In this document: positions 43,562 to 62,954 of the stretch, in pieces
Position numbering within the stretch: position 1 is the first letter of the stretch
How the letters are laid out: each line of letters begins with the position of its first letter
Origin: Anaerolineae bacterium
GTDB lineage: Bacteria > Chloroflexota > Anaerolineae > Aggregatilineales > Phototrophicaceae
Length of the DNA: 64,000 nucleotides
NCBI GenBank assembly: GCA_022821805.1
Contig: JAJECX010000042.1
Location: forward strand, 1-64,000
Direction: 5' to 3'
Translations under genes and position numbers: made by a program
The notes under the pieces: model-generated
The model's input: the letters and a program-made list of their open reading frames with translations, nothing else
Databases searched by the model: none
Told to the model about the DNA's origin: nothing

Positions 43562-44424
43562 TGGCCGTGATTGCCGCAGCGAAGAATCGTAAACGGAGCG
43601 AGCGAATTCAAAAGCTTGTCGTCTACGCCATTTTGCTCACTGGCGCGGTCATTGTCCTCTTTCCCTTCCTCTGGACCTTCTCAACATCGCTGAAGACACC
43701 GGATCAGGTTTATCAGATTCCGCCAAGGCTGATCCCAGAACCGGCGGCGCCGGAAAACTATGATCGCGTTCTCAATGAGCGTCCCTTTGGGCGCTGGATG
43801 CTGAACTCGTTTTTCGTGGTTGCGCTGTCGACAGTCGGCACACTGCTCTCCTGCAGCATGACTGCATTCGCCTTTTCGCGCTTGCGCTGGCCCCTTCGCG
43901 ACAAACTGTTTCTGGTGCTGCTGGCTACGATGATGCTACCCGATCAGGTAACGCTGATACCGACCTTCATCATCTTTAAGCAATTGGGCTGGGTAAACAC
44001 ATATTTGCCAATCACCTTCCCCGCTTGGTTCGCGCGTAACGCCTTCTATGTATTTCTTCTGCGCCAGTTCTTTATGACAATCCCGCTGGACTTAGACGAT
44101 GCCGCGCGAATGGATGGCGCGGGTCACTTTCAAGTGTACTGGCGAATCATCTTGCCGATGAGCAAGCCGGCGCTTGGCGTCGCGGCGCTGATGTTCGCGC
44201 AGTTCAAATGGAGAGAATTCCTCGCGCCTTTGATCTATCTCAATCGCAGCGAGTCTTACACCGCGGCCATCGGTCTGCGCACTTTCATGGATGAAACACA
44301 TGGCACGGACTGGGAGTTGATGATGGCGGCGAATATCCTGTTTATGATTCCGGTCGTCACAGTGTTCTTTTTCACGCAGCGCTATATGATTCAGGGCGTG
44401 GTGATCACCGGAGTAAAAGGCTAG
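43558..44424 (+). CDS. Carbohydrate ABC transporter permease (MalG/UgpE type)
   Basis: FLWTFSTSLKTPDQV; EAA motif LDDAARMDGAGHFQVYWRIILPMSKPALGV; C-term QGVVITGVKG. Confidence 0.94.
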   Translation: MMAVIAAAKNRKRSERIQKLVVYAILLTGAVIVLFPFLWTFSTSLKTPDQVYQIPPRLIPEPAAPENYDRVLNERPFGRWMLNSFFVVALSTVGTLLSCSMTAFAFSRLRWPLRDKLFLVLLATMMLPDQVTLIPTFIIFKQLGWVNTYLPITFPAWFARNAFYVFLLRQFFMTIPLDLDDAARMDGAGHFQVYWRIILPMSKPALGVAALMFAQFKWREFLAPLIYLNRSESYTAAIGLRTFMDETHGTDWELMMAANILFMIPVVTVFFFTQRYMIQGVVITGVKG

Positions 44425-44471
44425 AGAGAGGAGGCGCAGCGACCAAACAGAAGCAGGGCAGTTTAAGAAGG

Positions 44472-45776
44472 ATGAATTTGCGACTGGAGGAAATGATGAA
44501 TAGCAGGTTTACAAGACGCGATTTTCTCAAGCTGTCGGCGATGTCCGGGCTGGGCGCGGCATTCGCGGCTTCGCCCTTTAGCGCGCTGGCGCAGGACATG
44601 GTTACTGTTCGGCTTACCGCATGGGGCAATCCGACGGAGTTTCAGGCGCGCGAGGCGACCCTGGCGCTATTCGATGAAATGCAAGATGCCATCGATGTCG
44701 ATTTCATTCACATTCCGTCGGACTATCTGACCAAGATACTGACCATGATCGCTGGCGGCGATTATCCCGACGTGATGTTTCTGGGCAACGGCGATGTGAT
44801 TCCCTTCGTGTCTCGCAATCAGCTGCTGCCGCTTGATGACTTCATGGCGCGCGACAACTTCGACACATCGGACATTTCGCAGCAGAATCTGAAGCTGTAC
44901 AACGTTGACGGCGTCCAGTACGGCTTCCCGGTCGACGCGCCAAATCAGCAGCTATTTTACAACAAGACGCTCTTTGATCAGGCAGGTATCGAGACACCGT
45001 CTCCCGACTGGGAAGACGATTCGTGGAATTGGGAAGCCTTCCTGGAAAAGGCAATAGCAGTCACTGATAAAGACAACGGCATCTGGGGCTGGCAAGTGAA
45101 AACCGGCTTTCGCGCCTGGTGGATTTGGGTCACTGCCAACGGCGGCGAATTCTTCAACGAAGACGGTACGGAATGTGTGCTGAACTCGCCGGAAGCGGTC
45201 GAGGCATTCCAATTCCTGGCTGATCTCATCCATGTTCACGAGGTAGCGCCGCCCTTGGATGTGGCGAGCGAGCTCGGCTCGAATGAGCTATTCCAGTCGG
45301 GCGTGACCGCGATGGAGACCTGGTGGCCCGCCATCGGCCGGATGCGCTCTAACATCGCCGACAGATTCGAGTGGAATGTGGCGCCACATCCGGGCGGCAA
45401 AGCGGGAAAGTCAACCGCGGGCGGCGGCACTGGTCACACCATCTCGGCGGAGACGCAGCACCCGGAAGAAGCCTGGCAATTCTTGAAGTTCCTGATCTCG
45501 ACGGACTGCGTCTCGGTCTGGACCGATATCATGGGCATCGTGCCGCCCTTGACGTCGGTCGCCGAATCGGATGTTTTCCTGAAACCGGGTGAGCCACCGG
45601 CCGACATCCTGGTCTTCACCAAGGGCAACGATTACCTGAGGCCCGACCCGCGGCATCCGCAGTTCTCTCAAGCGCGGTCGATTGCGCAGAGCCAACTCGA
45701 GCGGCTTTGGATCGGCGGCGTTACCGCGCAAGAAGTCGCCGACGATATCGTCGCCGAGGTGAATCGCTTGCTATAG
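44472..45776 (+). CDS. Extracellular sugar-binding protein (ABC solute-binding family 1), Tat signal
   Basis: SRFTRRDFLKLSAMSGLGAAFAASPFSALAQD twin-Arg signal; LTAWGNPTEFQAREATLALFDEMQ, MIAGGDYPDVMFLG; follows both permeases. Confidence 0.92.
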   Translation: MNLRLEEMMNSRFTRRDFLKLSAMSGLGAAFAASPFSALAQDMVTVRLTAWGNPTEFQAREATLALFDEMQDAIDVDFIHIPSDYLTKILTMIAGGDYPDVMFLGNGDVIPFVSRNQLLPLDDFMARDNFDTSDISQQNLKLYNVDGVQYGFPVDAPNQQLFYNKTLFDQAGIETPSPDWEDDSWNWEAFLEKAIAVTDKDNGIWGWQVKTGFRAWWIWVTANGGEFFNEDGTECVLNSPEAVEAFQFLADLIHVHEVAPPLDVASELGSNELFQSGVTAMETWWPAIGRMRSNIADRFEWNVAPHPGGKAGKSTAGGGTGHTISAETQHPEEAWQFLKFLISTDCVSVWTDIMGIVPPLTSVAESDVFLKPGEPPADILVFTKGNDYLRPDPRHPQFSQARSIAQSQLERLWIGGVTAQEVADDIVAEVNRLL

Positions 45777-50017: not shown

Positions 50018-50154
50018 CTCCATTCTGCGGTAGGCAGTTTATGCAGCGATTACGCGCGTAAAGAATATGGGCAATGTTACCGCGTAAGGAGCGGTGTCCG
50101 TCAGTAGAGTTTACGAAAACGACTCCAACAATAGAGTCAAAGGAGACTGAGCCG

Positions 50155-51396
50155 ATGTATCAACCGAAACCGACCAAAGGCAACACCGATTGGTTCACAC
50201 ATGACCGCTTCGGCATGTTCATCCACTGGGGGCTCTATGCGCTGCCGGCGCGGCACGAGTGGGTGAAGAACCGCGAAGAGCTGACCGATGAGCAATACGC
50301 GCCTTATTTCAAGTACTTCAATCCGAAGCGCTTCAATCCTGACCACTGGGCTGAACTGGCGCAGGCGGCCGGCATGAAGTATATGGTCATCACCTCCAAG
50401 CATCACGAAGGTTTCTGCCTCTGGGATTCGCAATACACTGACTACAAGGCGACCAACACGCCCTGGGGCAAAGACCTGCTTGGCGAAGTCGTGCGCGCTT
50501 TTCGCAGCCGCGGGCTTAAGGTCGGTTTCTATTATTCGCTGATCGACTGGCATCATCCCGATTTCACCGTCGACATGCGGCATTCCCAGCGCAACAACCC
50601 CGAACGAGCCGCCTTGAACCAAGGGCGGGATATGAGCAAATACCGCGCCTATATGAAAAATCAAGTGCGCGAATTGCTGACCAATTTCGGCAAAATCGAT
50701 GTGCTCTGGTATGACTTCTCGTATCCCGGTCCCGATGGCAAGGGACGCGACGACTGGGACAGCGAGGGGTTGGAGACGCTAAGCCGCACGCTGCAACCGG
50801 AGATCATCATCAACAATCGGCTGGACCTGCCGTCGTCCGCCGACATCTACACGCCGGAACAGTTTCAGCCGCGCGAGTGGGTGCATGTGGATGGCGCGCC
50901 GGTGGTATGGGAGACCTGCCAGACTTTCAGCGGCTCCTGGGGCTATCATCGCGATGAAGCCACCTGGAAGAGCGCGGGCCAGTTGATTCGCATGCTGGTC
51001 AATACGGTGTCTACCGGCGGCAACCTCCTGATGAACGTAGGACCAACGGCGCTGGGCGAGCTGGACAGCCGCGCCGAGGACGCGCTCGGCGTTTACCGCG
51101 ACTGGATGGCGCAGCACAGCGAGTCGATCTACGGCTGCACCGCCAGCGCTTTGAGGCCCCCGCAAGATTGCCGCTTGACGCAAAATGGCGACCTGCTTTA
51201 TGCGCATGTCTTCGCCTATCCCTTCCGTCATCTGCATATTGACGACTTCGGCGATCGGATTGAATACGCCGAATTCTTGCATGACGGCAGCGAGATTCAG
51301 TTCAGCGTTGACGATGCGGGAACGGCGAGCTTGCAGCTGCCAGTGATTCAGCCGCGGACTGAAGTTCCGGTGATCAAGCTGTATTTGAAGTCGTAA
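50155..51396 (+). CDS. Alpha-L-fucosidase (GH29)
   Basis: WFTHDRFGMFIHWGLYALPARHEW, YMVITSKHHEGFCLWDS, IDVLWYDFSYPG (nucleophile Asp), GGNLLMNVGPTALGEL. Confidence 0.93.
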   Translation: MYQPKPTKGNTDWFTHDRFGMFIHWGLYALPARHEWVKNREELTDEQYAPYFKYFNPKRFNPDHWAELAQAAGMKYMVITSKHHEGFCLWDSQYTDYKATNTPWGKDLLGEVVRAFRSRGLKVGFYYSLIDWHHPDFTVDMRHSQRNNPERAALNQGRDMSKYRAYMKNQVRELLTNFGKIDVLWYDFSYPGPDGKGRDDWDSEGLETLSRTLQPEIIINNRLDLPSSADIYTPEQFQPREWVHVDGAPVVWETCQTFSGSWGYHRDEATWKSAGQLIRMLVNTVSTGGNLLMNVGPTALGELDSRAEDALGVYRDWMAQHSESIYGCTASALRPPQDCRLTQNGDLLYAHVFAYPFRHLHIDDFGDRIEYAEFLHDGSEIQFSVDDAGTASLQLPVIQPRTEVPVIKLYLKS

Positions 51397-53380: not shown

Positions 53381-53791
53381 CTATCCCTTGACGCCGGTAG
53401 TGGCGATGCCTTCGACGAAGTAGCGCTGGCCGAAGATGAAGATGATCAAGACGGGGATAACCGCGATGGTCGCCACCGCCATCATCAGGTGCCATTCGGT
53501 GTTGCCGTAAGCGCCCTGATATTGGACGAGGCAAACCGGCAGCGTCTGTACATCGGGCGTGCGCAGGTAAAGCAAAGGACCGAAAAAGTTATTCCAGTTG
53601 CCGATGAAAGCGAAGATGGCGAGCGTCGCCAGCGCCGGCTTGGACAGCGGGATGAAGATTTGCAGCAGGATGCGCGCGTGCCCGGCGCCGTCAATCTTGG
53701 CGGCGTCCACCAGCTCTTCCGGAATCGTGAGGAAGAATTGACGCAGCAAGAATATGAAGAAGGGCCAACCGAACCAGGGCGGCACCATCAT
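53381..53791 (-). pseudogene. 5'-truncated carbohydrate ABC transporter permease (MalG type)
   Basis: Aligns with residues ~152-288 of the intact permease at 43558 (EAA motif DAAKIDGAGHARILLQIFIPLSKPAL; C-term EGIATTGVKG); N-terminal ~150 aa missing. Confidence 0.82.
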
Positions 53792-56079
53792 TTTGTACCT
53801 TCACACTCGATCAAGCCTCGGGCTTCCACGATAAACCATTGAGCCGCATCAACTTGCCTGCCATTGCGATATTGAATCCAAGACGTAATTTGCTTATCGC
53901 CAGGGTTACAGTTTCGCACCAATCTGGAAGCGGCTATGTGGCCGTTGCGCCTGGCTTCATCTGGGGTGCTGCCACCTGCTTCTACCCAAGCACCTTCATT
54001 AGTATATCTATACTTAATCGGCTCAGGTGTATTAGTTGGTATCGGGGGCCGATGCGTGTTCGTCGGTTTCGGCGTTTTGGTTTTTGTTGGTTTGGGTTTT
54101 GGCTTTTGAGTCGGCTTCTTCGTCGGTGTGAAGGTTGGCGTATCTGTCGGAGTATTCGTGAATGTTGGCGTGAACGAAGGCGTACTTGTCGCGGTTGGGG
54201 TTGGAGTGAAAGTCGGCGTATCCGTCGGGGTATTCGTGGGCGTAAATGTAGGCGTATTCGTAGGCGTGAATGTTGGCGTATTGGTCGGCGTGTTGGTCGG
54301 TGTATTCGTTGGCGTGGCAGTCGGTGTATTGGTAGGCGTATCTGTGGGTGTGAAAGTCGGGGTGTGCGTCGGCGTTGCCGTTGGCGTATCCGTCGGCAGC
54401 ACCGTCAACGGCAGCAAGGCGCTCCATTCGCCCGATTCTTCACAGGTTTCGCCATCCCCCACCGCCCGGACCTGGACTTCGTAAGGCGCGCCAACTTGCA
54501 GTTCAGCAAATTGGTAAGCGCGCTGCGCAGCGGAAAGCGTCGTCGACAGCCAGTCGCCGCCCGCCATTCGCCATCGCAGCTGATAGCCAATGGCGCCCTC
54601 AACCGCATCCCATCCGACGACAAAATCGGATAGTGGTTGAAGATTCGCCGGCCTCGGCAGTATACATAGCGGAATCGCAGTATCCGTTGCAGTTGGCGGT
54701 GTGGTCGATGTTGCCGTAGAAGTCGGCGTTGCGGTATGGGTTGCCGTTTCTGTCGGCGTGTTCGTCGCCGTTGAGGTCGCCGTTTCGGTTGCCGTTGGCG
54801 TTTCAGTATGCGTCGCTTCCTCCGTTGGCGTCGGCGTATTTGTCGGAATTGGCGCGTGGGTAGAAGTAGCGACCGGTTCTGCTTCTAGCTGCAAGAAGCC
54901 AGTCCACTCTCCCCGTTTTACATAGATCTCTCCATCGCCAAGCGCCCGCACCTTGACCATGACTGTCACGTCTGCTGCTATTCCCACAAGCGTATATTCG
55001 AGCTGACTTGCCGCAACCGAGACCGTATCGCGTGAGCCGTCCGGCAACTCCCAGCGCACACGGTAGCTTGCCGCTCCTTCCACCGCGTCCCAAGCGATAG
55101 TTCTCGGCCCAATCTGTCTCAGGTTCTCCGGCGCTGGCAGATTGATAGGCTCTGATGGCAAAGTGACCGTCGCTGTATGGGTAGCGGTGTTCGTCGACGT
55201 GTGCGTAGCCGTCGCGGTTGCAGTATTGGTCGTGGTGGCTGTTGGCTTGTTTGTTGCGGTAGAAGTTGGGGTGTTCGTGGCTGTATACGTAGCTGTCGAA
55301 GTTGCAGTAACAGTAGCCGCAGCTGTGGGCGGCAGCGTATTCGTGGCGGTTGGCTCAGGTGTCACAGTTGCTGTTGGCATTGGCGTTGGCGAGGCAGCTG
55401 GCGGCTGCGCCAGTTGGACGAACGAACTCCATCGACTCTTGCTTTCGTAACGTTGTCCATCGCCCAATGCTTGCACGGATACTCGGTAGGTCGCACCTGC
55501 TATCAAGCTGGAAAAGGTAAATTGAGTTTGTGGCGCGTCCACGGTCACTTCGCGATTCTTGCCAGCCCCAGACAATAGTAATTTGTATGCGATAGCGCCT
55601 GAAACAGCCTCCCAAGCGACGGAGTCAGTTGAAATTGGCCGAAGGATTGGCGTTCGCAAGCCGCGAAGAATCACGCGAGTTGCGGTCGCCGTTGGCGTAG
55701 CGGTGGGTGTATTCGTCGGTGTTGCAGTGGGAAAAGGGCGAGTTATTACTGTGAAATTAGTCCAGCGGCTGTCCTGATATTCCGCGCTGTCGCCTGAAAC
55801 TGCTTGTACTTTCACATAATAGAGCTCGCCGTAATGAAACCCGCTCATATCGAATCTGTTAGGAGTCACCTCTTCTAGGATGTAACGCAATCTCGCGGCT
55901 GCTCTCACCCACTCGACGCGATAGCCGCTTGCGCCTGCGACTGCGTTCCAGACGACCGCATCGTTTTCGACGCGGATATTCTGTGGCCGCGGGAGCTGCC
56001 GCTGAGCTTGGGCAGACGGTGCAAAAAAGATAGACATCATCGCCACCAGCAGCGCGCATTGCAAAATCTTGTGACTCAT
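53788..56079 (-). CDS. Secreted multi-FN3-like protein with TPT/TPTNTPT linkers
   Basis: Signal peptide [26 protein letters not shown]; four modules with W(D/N/E)AV(E/A/S)GAxxYxxxW; long (TPTNTPT)n linkers; ATG at 56079. Confidence 0.8.
54108..54400 (-). repeat. Degenerate coding tandem repeat (Thr-Pro-Thr-Asn/Asp) inside the FN3-like gene
   Basis: Repeated 12-24 nt units (plus strand GTCGGYGTATTSGTNGGYGT). Confidence 0.8.
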
Positions 56080-56401
56080 ATTGCCCCGTTCCACCAGCCA
56101 GAAGGTTGAAATGTTGACAGTAAATCCACTGATCGCCAAAGCATGGTAATTTACTAAATTGCCAAAAATAAGGAAAGGTGAGATATGCGGTGCGCCGAGG
56201 CAACTGATGTGCGGCTTGCTGCCCGAATTCAACAGTCATAGCACGGCAAATCTTTGATTTTGAAAGGTCGTGTGTGTAGAATGAACTGCTTCAGAGCGCA
56301 TCAAACTCAAGCGTTTGATCGCAAATGAGCCGGCGTAAGTTGACGTTTTCACCGCTAATTTCTGTGAATATAATGGTCAGATGAGCGCAATTCGCTAAGC
56401 C

Positions 56402-58009
56402 ATGCCACGACCCAAAGTCATTCATCCGCCGCAGACGCAGCAAGCGCTGCAACGCGGAATCACGACGCTTGTAGGAGCCATAGCGCCGACGCTGGGACCG
56501 ACCCCGCGCCGCTCCATTGCGCAGAACCAAACCAAGTTCGAACTCTTGGATGATGGCGGCCTGATCGCCCGGCGCATAATAGCGCTGCCCGAACAAGAAG
56601 ACGATGTCGGGGCGATGCTGCTGCGGCAAGCGCTCTGGGCTGTGCATCAGCATGTCGGTGATGGCGCCGCCACCACCGCGGTCCTCTACGAGAGAATCTA
56701 CAATGAAGGCTTGCGCTTCATCGCCGCTGGCGCCGACCCTATGCGGCTGCGCGCTCGCTTGATGGAACTGCTTCCGCATCTCAGCGAGCGATTGCTGGCG
56801 GAAGCGCGCCCGCTTAGCGGTGAAGCGGAATTGCAGGCGCTTGCCTTCTCCGTCTGCTATGACGAGGAGATGGCATCGGTCCTAGGCGAAATCATCAGCG
56901 CCATCGGTCAGTACGGGCAGGTTGATGTTCGCGCCGGACACGGACGGAGCCTGGAATACAACTATGTCGATGGCAGCTACTGGCGTGGCGGCGTCCAATC
57001 CAAAGAGATGCTGCGCGGCTTCCAGCGGGGGGTCGTCGAAATGCATGACGCGGCCATTTTGGTAACCGATATGGACATTGAAGAACCGCGCGAGCTGGTG
57101 CCGCTGATGAGCCTGGCGCTGCGCTGCAGCATCAAAAACTTGCTGCTGGTGGTGGCTTCAATCTCGGAGACGGGACTCTCAGTGGCGCTCGACGATCGCT
57201 TGAAAGACAAAATCAGGACCATCGTCGTCAAAATTGATGAATTCCATCCCGGCGAATTAAGCATATTGCAGGAGGATATTGCGCTTTTGACAGGCGCGAA
57301 GCCTTTGCTGCAGCAGGCGGGCGAATCGCTGGAGGACGTCCAACAGGACAACTTCGGCGCGGCGCGCTGGGTCTGGGCTGACGATAAGAACTTCGGCTTC
57401 GCCAGCGGCAAATGCGATCCGCAGATTTTGCGCAAGCGAGTACGGCGCCTGCGAGCGGCATACGCAAAAGCGGAAGATGACGATGATCGCCGGCGCCTGC
57501 TGGAGCGGCTCGGGCGATTAAACGGCGGGCTGGCGACGGTATACGTTGGCGGCATCGCCGAAGACGAAATCAGGGGGCGCAAAGAGTTGGCGGAACGAAC
57601 TTTGCGCGCCTTGCGACGCGCCATCAGCGACGGCGTGATACCCGGAGGCGGGATCGCGCTGCTGCGCTGCCGCGATCAACTGCTGGCGGAAGCCCAAGCG
57701 CAAGACGAATTGGAGAGCCGCGCCGCCCGTCTAATCATGGCGTCTGCGGCTGAAGCGCCGATTCGCCAACTGCTGGCGAACGCCGGTTATGACCCGAGCG
57801 AAGCGCTGGCGCGACTGGGGCAAGATGGCGCTGAATTTGGCTTCGACGTGATGGCGGACGCGATCGTCGATGTAGCTAAAGCCGGCATCGTGGATGTGGC
57901 GCAGGTTCAACTTGAGGCGCTGCAACGCGCCGTTTCCAGCGCCGCCCTCGCTTTGACCATTGATGTGCTCGTGCTGCACCGCGAGCCGGAAACGATGACG
58001 GATCCTTAG
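56402..58009 (+). CDS. Divergent GroEL/Cpn60-like chaperonin paralogue
   Basis: ALWAVHQHVGDGAATTAVLYERIYNEGLRFIAAGADPMRL (GDGTTT-like), LGRLNGGLATVYVGG, SDGVIPGGGIALLRCRDQLL; lacks KGRN after TLGP, lacks GGM tail. Confidence 0.88.
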   Translation: MPRPKVIHPPQTQQALQRGITTLVGAIAPTLGPTPRRSIAQNQTKFELLDDGGLIARRIIALPEQEDDVGAMLLRQALWAVHQHVGDGAATTAVLYERIYNEGLRFIAAGADPMRLRARLMELLPHLSERLLAEARPLSGEAELQALAFSVCYDEEMASVLGEIISAIGQYGQVDVRAGHGRSLEYNYVDGSYWRGGVQSKEMLRGFQRGVVEMHDAAILVTDMDIEEPRELVPLMSLALRCSIKNLLLVVASISETGLSVALDDRLKDKIRTIVVKIDEFHPGELSILQEDIALLTGAKPLLQQAGESLEDVQQDNFGAARWVWADDKNFGFASGKCDPQILRKRVRRLRAAYAKAEDDDDRRRLLERLGRLNGGLATVYVGGIAEDEIRGRKELAERTLRALRRAISDGVIPGGGIALLRCRDQLLAEAQAQDELESRAARLIMASAAEAPIRQLLANAGYDPSEALARLGQDGAEFGFDVMADAIVDVAKAGIVDVAQVQLEALQRAVSSAALALTIDVLVLHREPETMTDP

Positions 58010-58010
58010 C

Positions 58011-58871
58011 ATGGCTGCGGTCGAGACGATTGAAAGAACCAATAGCCTGCTGGCGGCGGGAGAGGCCGTCTACGCTGCCAAGCAGTCGGGACTGTATCGA
58101 ATTGGCGCCGGCGGTGAAGAGCGGAACCTCTATCAGTCGTGGCTGCCCGATCAAGATCTGCCCACCCTTGCGATCGCAAATGCGGGTAATTTGCTGCTGG
58201 CTGGCATCAATGGCGGTGTCGCCCGCTCCGAAGATGGCGGGCGCAGCTGGGAAGCGCGTCAGTTTCGCGAGCCGGCGCCGCTGGTTACCTGCCTGGCGCT
58301 CTCACCTTGCTTTGAGGACGATGGCTGCGCGCTGGCCGGCGCCTTTGAAGATGGCGCCTTCCGCTCGACCGATGGCGGCGAGACTTGGCGCGCGGTAAAT
58401 CACGGTCTGTTCGATCACAGCATCTATGCGCTGGCTCTTTCGCCGCATTTCACCGCTGATGGCATCGCTTATGTCGGCACGGGAAGCGGTATATACCGCA
58501 GCGAAAACGGGGGCCGCCTCTGGTGGGATTTGACCATGCCCGCTGGCGACGAAACGGTGCTGAGCCTGGACTTAGCGGAAAGTGGCGCGCTCTATGCCGG
58601 CTGCGAGACGCGCGGGCTGCTGCGCTTAAGCGACGCCGGCGAAAGCTGGGAGACGCTGCTCGAGACAGACGGCGCGGTGAACGGCGTGTTGCTGACGGCT
58701 AGCGGCGCTATCGTCGCGCAGGTGGATGATGGCGCGCTGATTTCGCGAGATGAAGGCGCGAGCTGGAGCGAAGTAGAGGCGGCTAACGTGGACTGCATGG
58801 CGCTAAACGCTGAGGGCAATATGCTGCTGGCGGCGATGGCGGATGGGAGAATCAAAGGACTGAAACTTTGA
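58011..58871 (+). CDS. Asp-box (BNR/YCF48-like) beta-propeller protein
   Basis: Five Asp-box-like motifs SEDGGRSW, STDGGETW, SENGGRLW, SDAGESW, SRDEGASW; no signal peptide. Confidence 0.85.
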   Translation: MAAVETIERTNSLLAAGEAVYAAKQSGLYRIGAGGEERNLYQSWLPDQDLPTLAIANAGNLLLAGINGGVARSEDGGRSWEARQFREPAPLVTCLALSPCFEDDGCALAGAFEDGAFRSTDGGETWRAVNHGLFDHSIYALALSPHFTADGIAYVGTGSGIYRSENGGRLWWDLTMPAGDETVLSLDLAESGALYAGCETRGLLRLSDAGESWETLLETDGAVNGVLLTASGAIVAQVDDGALISRDEGASWSEVEAANVDCMALNAEGNMLLAAMADGRIKGLKL

Positions 58872-58960: not shown

Positions 58961-60352
58961 ATGACATTTGAACCAACACTCGAATCTGTCAGAACGCATG
59001 AAGTACCCGACTGGTATCACAACGCCAAGTTGGGCATCTTCATCCACTGGGGGCTCTATTCAGTGCCGGCTTGGGCGCCTCACGGCGGCGATATCGGCGA
59101 GGTTTTCCAGAGCGGCGACCTGAGCGCCTGGTTCAGCAACAATTCATACGCCGAGTGGTATCTGAATACCCTGAAGTTTGAAGGCAGCCCGACGCGCGCT
59201 TGGCACAACAAACATTATGGAAGCGGCTTCCACTACGATGACTTCGCCGCTGGCTTCAATTCGGCGCTAAGGCGCTGGAATCCAGCCGACATGGCGGCGC
59301 TCTTCAGCGAGGTCAATGCGCGTTATGTCGTCTTGACCACCAAGCATCACGACGGCTTCACGCTTTGGAACAGCGATATCCCGTGCCCGCGCAAGCGAAA
59401 CTATCATACACTGCGCGATGTCGTCGGCGAGCTGACTGATGCCGTCCGCGATCAAGGCATGCGCATGGCGCTCTATTATTCCGGCGGGTTGGATTGGGCC
59501 TTTAACGAGACGCGTATCGAGGATGTCGCTGATGTCTGGGGCACAATCGTGCAGTCGTCCGAATTCGTTGAGTATTCGGTCGCGCATTGGAAAGAACTGA
59601 TCGACCGCTACCAGCCCTCGATTATGTGGAATGATATCGGCTACCCGGCGGCGGCCGACCTGGGCGAGCTATTCGCCTATTATTACAACAATGTGTCCGA
59701 TGGCGTGATCAACGACCGCTTCACGCAGTCGCGCGATCAGCGGCCCAAAGCGGGCGAAAAGCTGACCGTGCCGCGCGGTCCGCATTTCGATTACATCACC
59801 CCCGAATACGCCACCTTCGACGAGATTCAGGATGTGAAATGGGAATGCTGCCGCGGCATCGGGCACAGCTTCGGCTACAACCGGGCGGAGGGCGATGAGC
59901 AGTTGCTGGCGGAAGACGAGCTGATCCACATGTTCGTCGATATCGTCAGCAAGAATGGCAATCTGCTGCTGAACGTCGGTCCGATGGCCGATGGAGCGAT
60001 CCCGCAAAACCAGGCGGACCGCCTTCGCGCGCTGGGTCGCTGGCTGGATCGCAACGGCGAGGCGGTATTCGACACGCGCCCCTGGCAGCGCGCCGATGGA
60101 AAGACGAGTCAGGGCTTGGACCTGCGTTTCACATCAAATGAATACGCTGTTTACGTCACGCTGCTGGGCGGGCCAAGCGAGAGCGAGCTCCGCATTGAAG
60201 GGCTGGAGGCGCCCGCCAGCGCCGATGTTCAATTGCTGGGGCGGGAAGGCGACTTGAAGTGGGGGCAGGATGGCGCCGACATGGTGATACAACTGCCGGA
60301 CTTGCCCGAGGCGTCGGCGCATTCGCTGCGGATTCAGGGCATAGGTGGCTAG
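58961..60352 (+). CDS. Alpha-L-fucosidase (GH29)
   Basis: WYHNAKLGIFIHWGLYSVPAWAP, YVVLTTKHHDGFTLWNSD, PSIMWNDIGYP, NGNLLLNVGPMADGAIP. Confidence 0.95.
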   Translation: MTFEPTLESVRTHEVPDWYHNAKLGIFIHWGLYSVPAWAPHGGDIGEVFQSGDLSAWFSNNSYAEWYLNTLKFEGSPTRAWHNKHYGSGFHYDDFAAGFNSALRRWNPADMAALFSEVNARYVVLTTKHHDGFTLWNSDIPCPRKRNYHTLRDVVGELTDAVRDQGMRMALYYSGGLDWAFNETRIEDVADVWGTIVQSSEFVEYSVAHWKELIDRYQPSIMWNDIGYPAAADLGELFAYYYNNVSDGVINDRFTQSRDQRPKAGEKLTVPRGPHFDYITPEYATFDEIQDVKWECCRGIGHSFGYNRAEGDEQLLAEDELIHMFVDIVSKNGNLLLNVGPMADGAIPQNQADRLRALGRWLDRNGEAVFDTRPWQRADGKTSQGLDLRFTSNEYAVYVTLLGGPSESELRIEGLEAPASADVQLLGREGDLKWGQDGADMVIQLPDLPEASAHSLRIQGIGG

Positions 60353-61637
60353 ATTGGCGCAAAAAGTCGATTCAACCGTCGAAAGAAATCTGCCCTGGAA
60401 CTTCTCGGTCAATCTGATCGATATCAGCTTCATCACGCTGGCTTTCAGCATCATCTCGCGCGAGACGATCACGCCCTTGCTGATCAGCAACTTGACCGAT
60501 TCCAAGATCGCTATCGGCTTCGTGCCGGCGATTTACAGCATCGCCTATTACCTGCCGCAGCTATTTGCCGCCAATCACGCCGAGCGCCTGAAACGCAAGC
60601 TGCCCTTCGTCATGTTGATAGGCGGCTTGCTGGAGCGCGTGCCTTATCTCTTCGCCGGGCTGGCGATTCTGCTTTTCGCCGAAAGCGCGCCAATCGCCGC
60701 GCTGCTCTGCCTGTATCTGGTGATCGGCTTGGGCGCCTTCGGCAATGGTGTAGCGACGCCGGCCTGGTTCAGCATGATCGGCAAGGTGCTGCCGGTCAAT
60801 CGACGGGGGATTTTCTTCGGCGTCAGCGAGGGCTTGGGCACCTTGATGGGCATCATCGGCGCTTTTTTTGTTGGCCGCGTACTCGACGGCATGGGCTACC
60901 CGCTGAATTTCGCGACGCTCTTCCTGGTTGCCGCCATTTTCATGGGCATTTCCTGGATTGGCTTGGCGCTGAACCGCGAGCCGGAAAGCCCGATCGTCAA
61001 GGAGCATATCCCGTTCAGCCATTATTTTCGGCGCTTGCCAGCGATATTGCGCGAAAATCACAACTATCGGCGCTTCCTGCTCAGTTACTGCATCAGCCGC
61101 CTGAGCACGATGGGCGTCGGTTTCTTCATCATTTATGGCAACGAGCGTTTTCAGTTGAGCGGCGCCGATGTTGGCTTGCTTACGGCGATTCTCATCGGCA
61201 GCCAGGCGGCGATGCAGCTGCTGCTGGGCTGGCTGGCTGATAAACGCGGACACAAAGCCAATCTGACGGTATCGGGATTCGCGCTGGCAGCGGCGGCTGT
61301 ATTGGCGCTGGGCGCTACCGATCTCGTCGGCCTGATACCAGCCTTCGTATTGCTGGGGGTCGGGCTGGCGAGCGATCATGTCTCACGCTTGAATATCATC
61401 CTTGAGTTCGCCGTGCCCGAGGACCAGCCGACCTTCATTGGCTTGACGAATACGCTGCTGGCGCCGGTGGTTTTCCTGGCGCCGATATTCGGCGGCTGGC
61501 TGGCTGATGTCGGCTTCGAGACGCTCTTCACCTTGATGATCGTCTGCGGTTTTGCGGGCGGCGCGCTGCTCTTCACCTGGGTGCGAGAGCCACGCCACAG
61601 TCCGCCGGCGCCAATCAGCGAAAAGCCCAAGGTCTAG
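60345..61637 (+). CDS. MFS transporter
   Basis: ~12 TM segments; GTG start overlaps previous stop by 8 nt; LLGWLADKRGHKANLTVSG loop. Confidence 0.9.
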   Translation: MARLAQKVDSTVERNLPWNFSVNLIDISFITLAFSIISRETITPLLISNLTDSKIAIGFVPAIYSIAYYLPQLFAANHAERLKRKLPFVMLIGGLLERVPYLFAGLAILLFAESAPIAALLCLYLVIGLGAFGNGVATPAWFSMIGKVLPVNRRGIFFGVSEGLGTLMGIIGAFFVGRVLDGMGYPLNFATLFLVAAIFMGISWIGLALNREPESPIVKEHIPFSHYFRRLPAILRENHNYRRFLLSYCISRLSTMGVGFFIIYGNERFQLSGADVGLLTAILIGSQAAMQLLLGWLADKRGHKANLTVSGFALAAAAVLALGATDLVGLIPAFVLLGVGLASDHVSRLNIILEFAVPEDQPTFIGLTNTLLAPVVFLAPIFGGWLADVGFETLFTLMIVCGFAGGALLFTWVREPRHSPPAPISEKPKV

Positions 61638-61652
61638 CCACTCACATCTGGA

Positions 61653-62954
61653 ATGGATGCTGACGTGACCGACTCAGCGGAAAGCCAGGTTGAGCGCAAT
61701 CTCAACTGGAATTTCAGCGTCAATGTGCTGGACAATATGTTTTACGCGCTGGCGATCTCTCTCGTTTCGCAAGAGACGATCATGCCGCTGCTTGTTAGCG
61801 AATTGACCGATTCGACGATCGTCGTCGGACTGATTCCCGCCATCTTCAGCCTGTCATTTCTGCTGCCGCAGCTCTTCGTCGCCAACCACGCCGGCGGCTT
61901 GCGGCGCAAGCTGCCCTTCGTCTTGCTGGGCAGCGGCTTGCTGCAGCGCCTGCCCTACCCTTTGATCGGCCTCGCGCTGCTGCTATTCGCGGTAGAGGCG
62001 CCTGCTATTGCGCTGCTGCTATTTTTCATTGGCATCGCCACAGCCGCCTTCGGTGGCGGCATCGTGACACCCGCCTGGTTCACGATGATCGGCAAGGTCA
62101 TACCCACGCGGCGGCGCGGCATCTTCTTCGGGCTGGCCGATGGCGGCGGCTTGCTGATGGGGGTCATCGGCGCTTACTTCGTCGGGCGCGTACTCGATAT
62201 TGTCGACTATCCGGGCAGTTTCGCCCTGCTCTTCCTAGTCTGCGGCCTCATTCACGCGATTTCCTGGTTTTCGCTCTCACTCACGCGCGAGCCCCCCAGC
62301 GATGCAGTCAAAGAGGCGGTTCCGCTGCGGCATTACTTTCGGCGACTGCCGACAGTGCTGCGCGATCATACCAATTTTCGCCGCTTTCTCATCGGCTATG
62401 CGCTGCTGCGCCTGAGCATGATGTCGGTAAGTTTCTTCATTGTTTTCGGCAATATCAATTATGAACTGAGCGGCGCTGATATTGGCATGCTCAACGCGAT
62501 TTTCATCGGCACGCAAGCGGTGATGCGGCTGCTATTCGGCTGGCTGGGCGATCGCTGGGGGCATAAACGCAATCTGGTGATATCGGCGGCGAGCATGGCG
62601 CTGGCGGCAGCCTTCGCCTTGAATTCAGCCGATGTCGCCGGGCTGATCCCTGCCTTCGTCTGCCTCGCTTGCGCCCTCTCCAGCGATATGGTTTCCCACT
62701 TCAACATCGTGCTGGAATTTGCGGATCCCGCCGATCAGCCGACCTATATCGGGCTGACCAACACCTTGATGGCGCCCTTTACCTTCGCCGGTCCGATCGC
62801 CGCCGGCTGGATCGCGGCAAACGACATCAGTCGGCTATTCATCGTCTCGTTGACGTTTGGCGCAATCGGCGCGGCGCTGTTATGGTGGTGGGTGCGCGAA
62901 CCGCGGTACACGCGCAAGCAGAAGTCGGGAAAGACAAAACGGGAGACAGCATGA
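61653..62954 (+). CDS. MFS transporter (tandem paralogue)
   Basis: Same pattern as previous gene (ESQVERNLNWNFSVNVLDNMFYALAISLVSQETIMPLLVSELTDSTIVVGLIPAIFSL); 15-nt gap. Confidence 0.9.
   Translation: MDADVTDSAESQVERNLNWNFSVNVLDNMFYALAISLVSQETIMPLLVSELTDSTIVVGLIPAIFSLSFLLPQLFVANHAGGLRRKLPFVLLGSGLLQRLPYPLIGLALLLFAVEAPAIALLLFFIGIATAAFGGGIVTPAWFTMIGKVIPTRRRGIFFGLADGGGLLMGVIGAYFVGRVLDIVDYPGSFALLFLVCGLIHAISWFSLSLTREPPSDAVKEAVPLRHYFRRLPTVLRDHTNFRRFLIGYALLRLSMMSVSFFIVFGNINYELSGADIGMLNAIFIGTQAVMRLLFGWLGDRWGHKRNLVISAASMALAAAFALNSADVAGLIPAFVCLACALSSDMVSHFNIVLEFADPADQPTYIGLTNTLMAPFTFAGPIAAGWIAANDISRLFIVSLTFGAIGAALLWWWVREPRYTRKQKSGKTKRETA

Follow-up and report, generated by a model that had tools for sequence, protein, structure and literature searches.

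The window analysed here (the whole 64,000-nucleotide stretch of DNA) contains a divergent group I chaperonin gene, whose product carries Arg at the position of the catalytic Asp398 of Escherichia coli GroEL, followed directly by a gene encoding an Asp-box beta-propeller. This pairing is not due to chance and extends to other Chloroflexota classes; our literature searches found no description of a chaperonin-propeller pairing. We propose, with a rough probability of 45% and mainly from sequence comparisons, that the two genes make up a unit in which a GroES-independent, slowly cycling or non-cycling ring would be dedicated to a bound propeller and would usually be wired to an importer. The coordinates of the relevant features are given in Table 1.

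Table 1. Features of the chaperonin-propeller region, with the evidence for each of them
Feature	Coordinates	Strand	Basis
Truncated permease, MalG-type C-terminal part, frame of 139 aa	53384..53800	-	Profile matches, comparison with relatives
Promoter-like site, TTTTCA-17-TATAAT, 28 nt 5' of the chaperonin gene	56346..56374	+	Consensus match only
Chaperonin, class A, divergent group I, 535 aa	56402..58009	+	ORF, Pfam, GroEL models, fold search
Codons of Asp50 (position 51) and Asp51 (position 52)	56549..56554	+	Residue table
Asp87 codon (Asp87 in 95/95 divergent sequences)	56660..56662	+	Residue table
Arg399, CGA codon, aligned with Asp398 of E. coli GroEL	57596..57598	+	Alignment
Asp-box beta-propeller, 286 aa, without signal peptide, seven blades	58011..58871	+	ORF, Pfam, AlphaFold2

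The chaperonin is a member of the group I superfamily: it matches Pfam Cpn60_TCP1 (PF00118) with 115.5 bits (cut-off 34.3), the NCBIfam GroEL models span its residues 7-529, and a fold search with its AlphaFold2 model rendered GroEL/Hsp60 throughout among the matches listed. It is not a canonical GroEL. All the scores with the NCBIfam models fall below their cut-offs, including that with the canonical GroEL equivalog TIGR02348 (288.4 bits vs 582.1), and its identity with the E. coli protein is 27%, as is that with the canonical GroEL of its own genome. It also lacks the Asp398, the GGM tail (it ends in ...REPETMTDP) and the groES gene in the same operon that are expected of a canonical GroEL. 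The canonical groES-groEL genes are located on another contig (L008), groEL lying behind groES, and their GroEL has both Asp398 and a GGM tail. The first-pass annotation had described a divergent GroEL paralogue with no GGM tail and no adjacent groES, a description that the profile search and the location of the canonical genes bear out.

Regarding the regulation and provenance of the gene, the promoter-like consensus that precedes it was found twice against 0.7 matches expected, and no CIRCE heat-shock operator was detected in the window or at the canonical groESL locus with up to 3 mismatches allowed. A phage origin was considered and rejected, no close relatives of the chaperonin being found in the viral contigs searched and the PHROGs matches being limited to the generic GroEL family and one family of unknown function; a defence role was likewise discarded after a PADLOC search without match.

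The alignment is ungapped from position 398 to the GGG motif, and the Arg that had been placed at Asp398 in the first reading of the sequence does align with it. Arg occupies this position in 34 of 34 class A sequences, in 18 of 20 of class D, in both sequences of class E and in the five order-level ones, while class B has Ala, Lys or Ser, class C has Glu with one Asp, and the residue is otherwise Arg or His. The rest of the nucleotide site is largely preserved among the 95 divergent sequences, from the genus and the order, that make up our residue table. The motifs GDG(T/A)xT and GGG are invariant or nearly so, the glycines of G86-D87-G88 and G414-G416 are kept with few substitutions, and so are Thr30 and Asp495. 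Asp87 and Asp52, also noted at first reading, are accounted for in the alignment, in which Asp51 of the window protein corresponds to E. coli Asp52. The preceding position, 51, is Asp in 95/95 divergent sequences, in contrast to Lys in E. coli and His in the canonical copy. The AlphaFold2 model of the chaperonin monomer is weak at residues 34-59, the stretch in which Asp50 and Asp51 are located.

In E. coli GroEL, the D398A substitution leaves ~2% of the ATPase activity of the wild type and slows down the release of bound protein (PMC3813556). Judging from its sequence, the window chaperonin is plausibly impaired in ATP hydrolysis, as had been proposed at first reading. It is possible that Asp at position 51 compensates for the loss of Asp398, since it is invariant in the divergent sequences and several outer lineages with Asp398 already have it. 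In two outer chaperonins (L144 and L148) residue 87 is Asn and residue 398 is Glu, so that the most conserved catalytic Asp is gone as well; both adjoin Asp-box proteins of double length.

The inter-ring pair formed by Arg452 and Glu or Asp461, which bears on double-ring formation just indirectly, is mostly kept among the 95 divergent sequences, and is Arg452/Asp461 in the window protein. The GroES contacts Tyr199, Tyr203, Phe204 and Val264 are replaced in the divergent classes. At the positions of Tyr199, Tyr203, Phe204, Leu234, Leu237, Leu259, Val263 and Val264 the window protein has V, E, M, V, M, L, L and D, respectively; the aromatic residues and Val264 are therefore lost, Leu259 is kept and the other changes are conservative, a set of contacts that departs from that of canonical GroEL.

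The distribution of these proteins was surveyed in 41 related genomes, with a wider comparison throughout the phylum Chloroflexota, the genome-wide counts resting on family searches. Full-length class A orthologues, with 67-88% identity, are present in 24/24 genomes of the same genus, and divergent members were found in 5 of 16 genomes of other families in the order. The named genus records are metagenome-assembled Chloroflexota, and many of the carriers are apparently sponge symbionts, to judge from isolate names (for instance those of the COS and RHO series). Up to five divergent chaperonin classes occur within the genus. In a tree, classes A to E are separate from each other and all distant from the canonical branch. 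The genome studied here has two divergent paralogues in addition to the class A protein: C3, a class B protein with a similar propeller gene behind it, and C15 (class C), without one. Classes A, B and E have a propeller partner and classes C and D do not. Class C chaperonins vary in length (534-588 aa), and one of them (L009:7344-9140) has in its apical domain a proline-rich, low-complexity insertion that resembles an in-frame dispersed repeat and is similar to the start of an ORF at L009:13814-14509. Class D chaperonins (L100-L120) are followed by a phytanoyl-CoA dioxygenase-like gene and a LacI-type regulator.

The propeller gene begins with an ATG 1 nt past the TAG stop codon of the chaperonin gene. 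The propeller subfamily is present in exactly the 30 of the 41 genomes that have a divergent chaperonin, the other 11 having neither and none having only one of the two. The kinship among these genomes makes the co-occurrence counts less independent than they appear, but the distribution is clear-cut. Moreover, every propeller copy in the 41 genomes, searched for with a propeller profile because the Pfam BNR model is too short for genome-wide Asp-box counts, adjoins a divergent chaperonin. No propeller was found at any of 21 canonical groEL loci used as a control. In classes A, B and E the propeller gene comes directly after the chaperonin gene at every locus, and in several lineages the two are separated by 1 nt or overlap by 4 nt. 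In G038 they are convergent (tail to tail) and 75 nt apart; adjacency has therefore outlasted a rearrangement. Two apparent fusions were rejected: that in G035 (787 aa) proved to be an overlapping frame, the propeller there being frameshifted, and in G010 (765 aa) a separate propeller gene is present. The propeller of G035 (L130) is split by a frameshift that may represent either a sequencing error or decay.

At the level of the phylum, pairs were found in G224 (with a 4-nt overlap) and G370, and chaperonins that retain Asp398 are followed by Asp-box proteins in G241, G153 and G169. Those outer partners that were measured are of double length (629-700 aa, 10-11 boxes, ~70 kDa). Since outer chaperonins with Asp398 already have Asp-box partners, the pairing is older than the loss of this residue. 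Other outer chaperonins (those of G093, G193, G145, G249, G281, G261, G157, G105 and G344) have no adjacent propeller. These results agree with the two-component unit that had been suggested in the first-pass annotation, the pair being conserved in all 24 genomes of the genus and, when looked for, in other Chloroflexota; three of the observations that it had named as contrary to its reading (a GGM tail, a groES partner, or homologues never found beside the propeller gene) did not turn up. That reading had overlooked the greater age of the pairing relative to the Asp398 loss, the double-length partners, the lack of partners in classes C and D, and the link to importers of Tat-exported proteins described below.

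All five paralogue classes adjoin sugar ABC importers. Permease genes are located directly upstream and on the same strand in 16/18 class C, 19/20 class D, 2/2 class E and 9/16 class B loci (within 5 kb in 14/16 of the latter), as compared to none within 5 kb of 21 canonical groEL genes. In class A, an operon consisting of a binding protein and two permeases is transcribed divergently from the pair, and it is missing near several pairs, including that of the window. These genomes are rich in importers, with at least 150 permease matches (a lower bound, 150 of 235 candidates having been scored) and 73 matches to binding proteins across 4.4 Mb, so that proximity alone is a weak argument, which is not the case for direct, same-strand adjacency in separate classes. 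A twin-arginine signal is found on the binding proteins of 23/24 class A, 6/6 class C, 5/5 class D and 2/2 class E loci, on five complete and one partial class B sequences, and at three order-level and three outer loci, compared with 11 of ~53 binding proteins genome-wide; one class A binding protein scores 22.6 bits with Pfam TAT_signal, just below the cut-off of 22.7.

In the window, one permease and the binding protein have been lost, and the only trace left is a permease fragment, apparently derived from the ABC operon whose transcription diverges from that of the pair in relatives; the best matches to the class A binding protein in this genome are just 30-33% identical. The importer has decayed here while the chaperonin-propeller pair is intact. 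Between the chaperonin and the remnant, at the site of the binding protein and the other permease of relatives, a gene on the minus strand (53788-56232) encodes an 814-aa protein with fibronectin type III domains (fn3, 75 bits) and long Thr/Pro-rich linkers. Another twin-arginine sugar-binding protein (FTRRDFLK) is encoded on the plus strand ~11 kb upstream of the pair (44295-45773), without adjoining it. Also on the plus strand, the pair is flanked by two genes resembling GH29 alpha-L-fucosidases in sequence (50074-51396 and 58961-60352), and two similar membrane transporters, MFS-like by eye, are in tandem at 60345-61637 and 61653-62954.

The importer link could be taken to mean that the ring folds or proofreads the adjacent twin-arginine sugar-binding protein prior to export, the propeller being an accessory of some classes. 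Tat cargo must fold in the cytosol before export, and both the upstream permeases of classes B, C, D and E and the enrichment in Tat signals fit this possibility, which we nevertheless consider unlikely: the window pair stays intact and constrained after losing its binding protein and a permease, ~10 Tat binding proteins of the genome have no recorded neighbouring chaperonin, and common descent of the operons inflates the enrichment.

The propeller itself has five Asp-boxes, four strict and one degenerate, and, outside the boxes, further conserved residues, among them Asp135 and Glu199. It is recognized by BNR PF02012 (35.7 bits, cut-off 27) as an Asp-box propeller, and its AlphaFold2 model (pLDDT 93, pTM 0.90) has seven blades by strand count. 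Most known Asp-box proteins carry a signal peptide, unlike those described here, none being found in any propeller class examined. The size, number of boxes, lack of signal peptide and 1-nt spacing reported at first reading were all confirmed. Its structural neighbours in the PDB include Ycf48, enzymes of family GH74 and the sensor domain of a two-component system; scores with the Ycf48 models are below the cut-offs (PF14870, 23.8 vs 27; NF010237, 26.4 vs 326), and the protein lacks the signal peptide of that family. The nearest named family, the F510_1955 glycosylhydrolases (NF045728), gives 84.9 bits, also short of its cut-off of 175.

This last resemblance, together with the GH74 and sensor-domain neighbours, the conserved Asp135 and Glu199, and the ABC linkage, would suit a cytosolic glycosidase or a sugar sensor of the import pathway, with which the chaperonin would be merely co-regulated without ever binding it. 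We regard this as rather unlikely, because the strict tie of the propeller is to the chaperonin, which accompanies every copy, and the importer is missing near several class A pairs. The seven blades of the model could, alternatively, allow the pseudo-sevenfold propeller to cap or plug a heptameric chaperonin instead of GroES, and the contacts at Tyr199, Tyr203, Phe204 and Val264 have indeed been lost in the classes with short propellers. Such a lid seems very unlikely, since the outer lineages pair chaperonins that retain the GroES contacts with partners of 629-700 aa and 10-11 boxes, class C and D rings have neither contacts nor propeller, and the symmetry match is merely suggestive. Finally, that the chaperonin is a decaying groEL duplicate that lost its catalytic residue by drift is hardly credible in spite of the loss of Asp398 and GroES contacts and the decay of the neighbouring importer, as Arg398 is fixed in class A, whose frames are intact at all loci (533-536 aa), and pairwise dN/dS values (0.11-0.17 for the chaperonin, 0.18-0.34 for the propeller) show that both genes are under purifying selection, which excludes pseudogene status.

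In the dedicated unit that we favour, the chaperonin would still form a ring, probably a double one, that binds ATP with little or no hydrolysis, and GroES would not be used; Arg398 may contact or hold the gamma-phosphate and so favour the ATP-bound state. Slow or absent hydrolysis and independence from GroES would make of this ring a stable holder or assembly platform for a cytosolic, seven-bladed propeller, which would act as client or adaptor and remain attached to the ring. Through the propeller or directly, the ring may also serve a product of the importer operon, the best candidate being the Tat-exported binding protein, general folding being left to canonical GroESL. We infer both the binding of the propeller by the chaperonin and the Tat role, and operon neighbours can be functionally linked without contact. 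The absence of an adjacent propeller in classes C and D means that not every member of the clade needs one. A 30-kDa propeller would fit a chamber of the size of that of GroEL, whose usual client limit is ~60 kDa; the ~70-kDa outer partners would exceed this limit, an argument against an ancestral role in simply enclosing the partner. It is distinctly unlikely, in our opinion, that the chaperonin has given up general, GroES-dependent folding and become an ATP-locked ring dedicated to assembly or quality control of Tat-exported sugar-binding proteins, in which the propeller would replace GroES as a fixed co-factor.

The window protein shares with GroEL/Cpn60 the full-length, three-domain organization (at ~27% identity with the E. 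coli protein), the glycines that bind the nucleotide, Asp87 and the inter-ring pair, and differs in the lack of Asp398, most GroES contacts and the GGM tail, the gain of Asp at position 51, and its fixed propeller partner. GroEL paralogues in multiple copies are found in Chlamydia (GroEL2/3), Myxococcus and mycobacteria, and there are precedents for a second chaperonin coexisting with a canonical one that has the GGM tail (PMC11978752). The phage EL chaperonin (gp146) is a group I protein that can act as a holdase, works without GroES and blocks aggregation without encapsulation (PMC7185714); it keeps the catalytic Asp412 and is not known to have a propeller partner, in contrast to the window protein. 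CCT/TRiC, which folds seven-bladed WD40 propellers (PMC8544692), is also specialised towards beta-propellers, but it is a group II, hetero-oligomeric, eukaryotic chaperonin, in contrast to the group I protein with a single gene-linked Asp-box propeller described here. Ycf48/HCF136, an assembly factor, shares fold and repeat with our propeller (Foldseek TM ~0.7, 15-18% identity), which differs in having no signal peptide and in being tied to a chaperonin. Ycf48 is exported to the thylakoid lumen. Subunits with altered ATPase are known among the BBS chaperonin-like proteins.

Chaperonins are usually viewed as promiscuous, ATP-cycling and GroES-capped, and our results suggest a chaperonin dedicated to one partner rather than a general folder. 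If this is true, a clade that has lost the catalytic Asp, comprises up to five classes in one genus and is linked genetically to sugar importers and to a single propeller subfamily would offer a clear example, among bacteria, of a chaperonin dedicated to its client. The two genes would make up a tractable system for finding out whether useful work can be done by a ring that binds ATP and hardly hydrolyses it, and whether Tat cargo has dedicated chaperonins. It would also represent a bacterial parallel to the relation between CCT and beta-propellers in eukaryotes.
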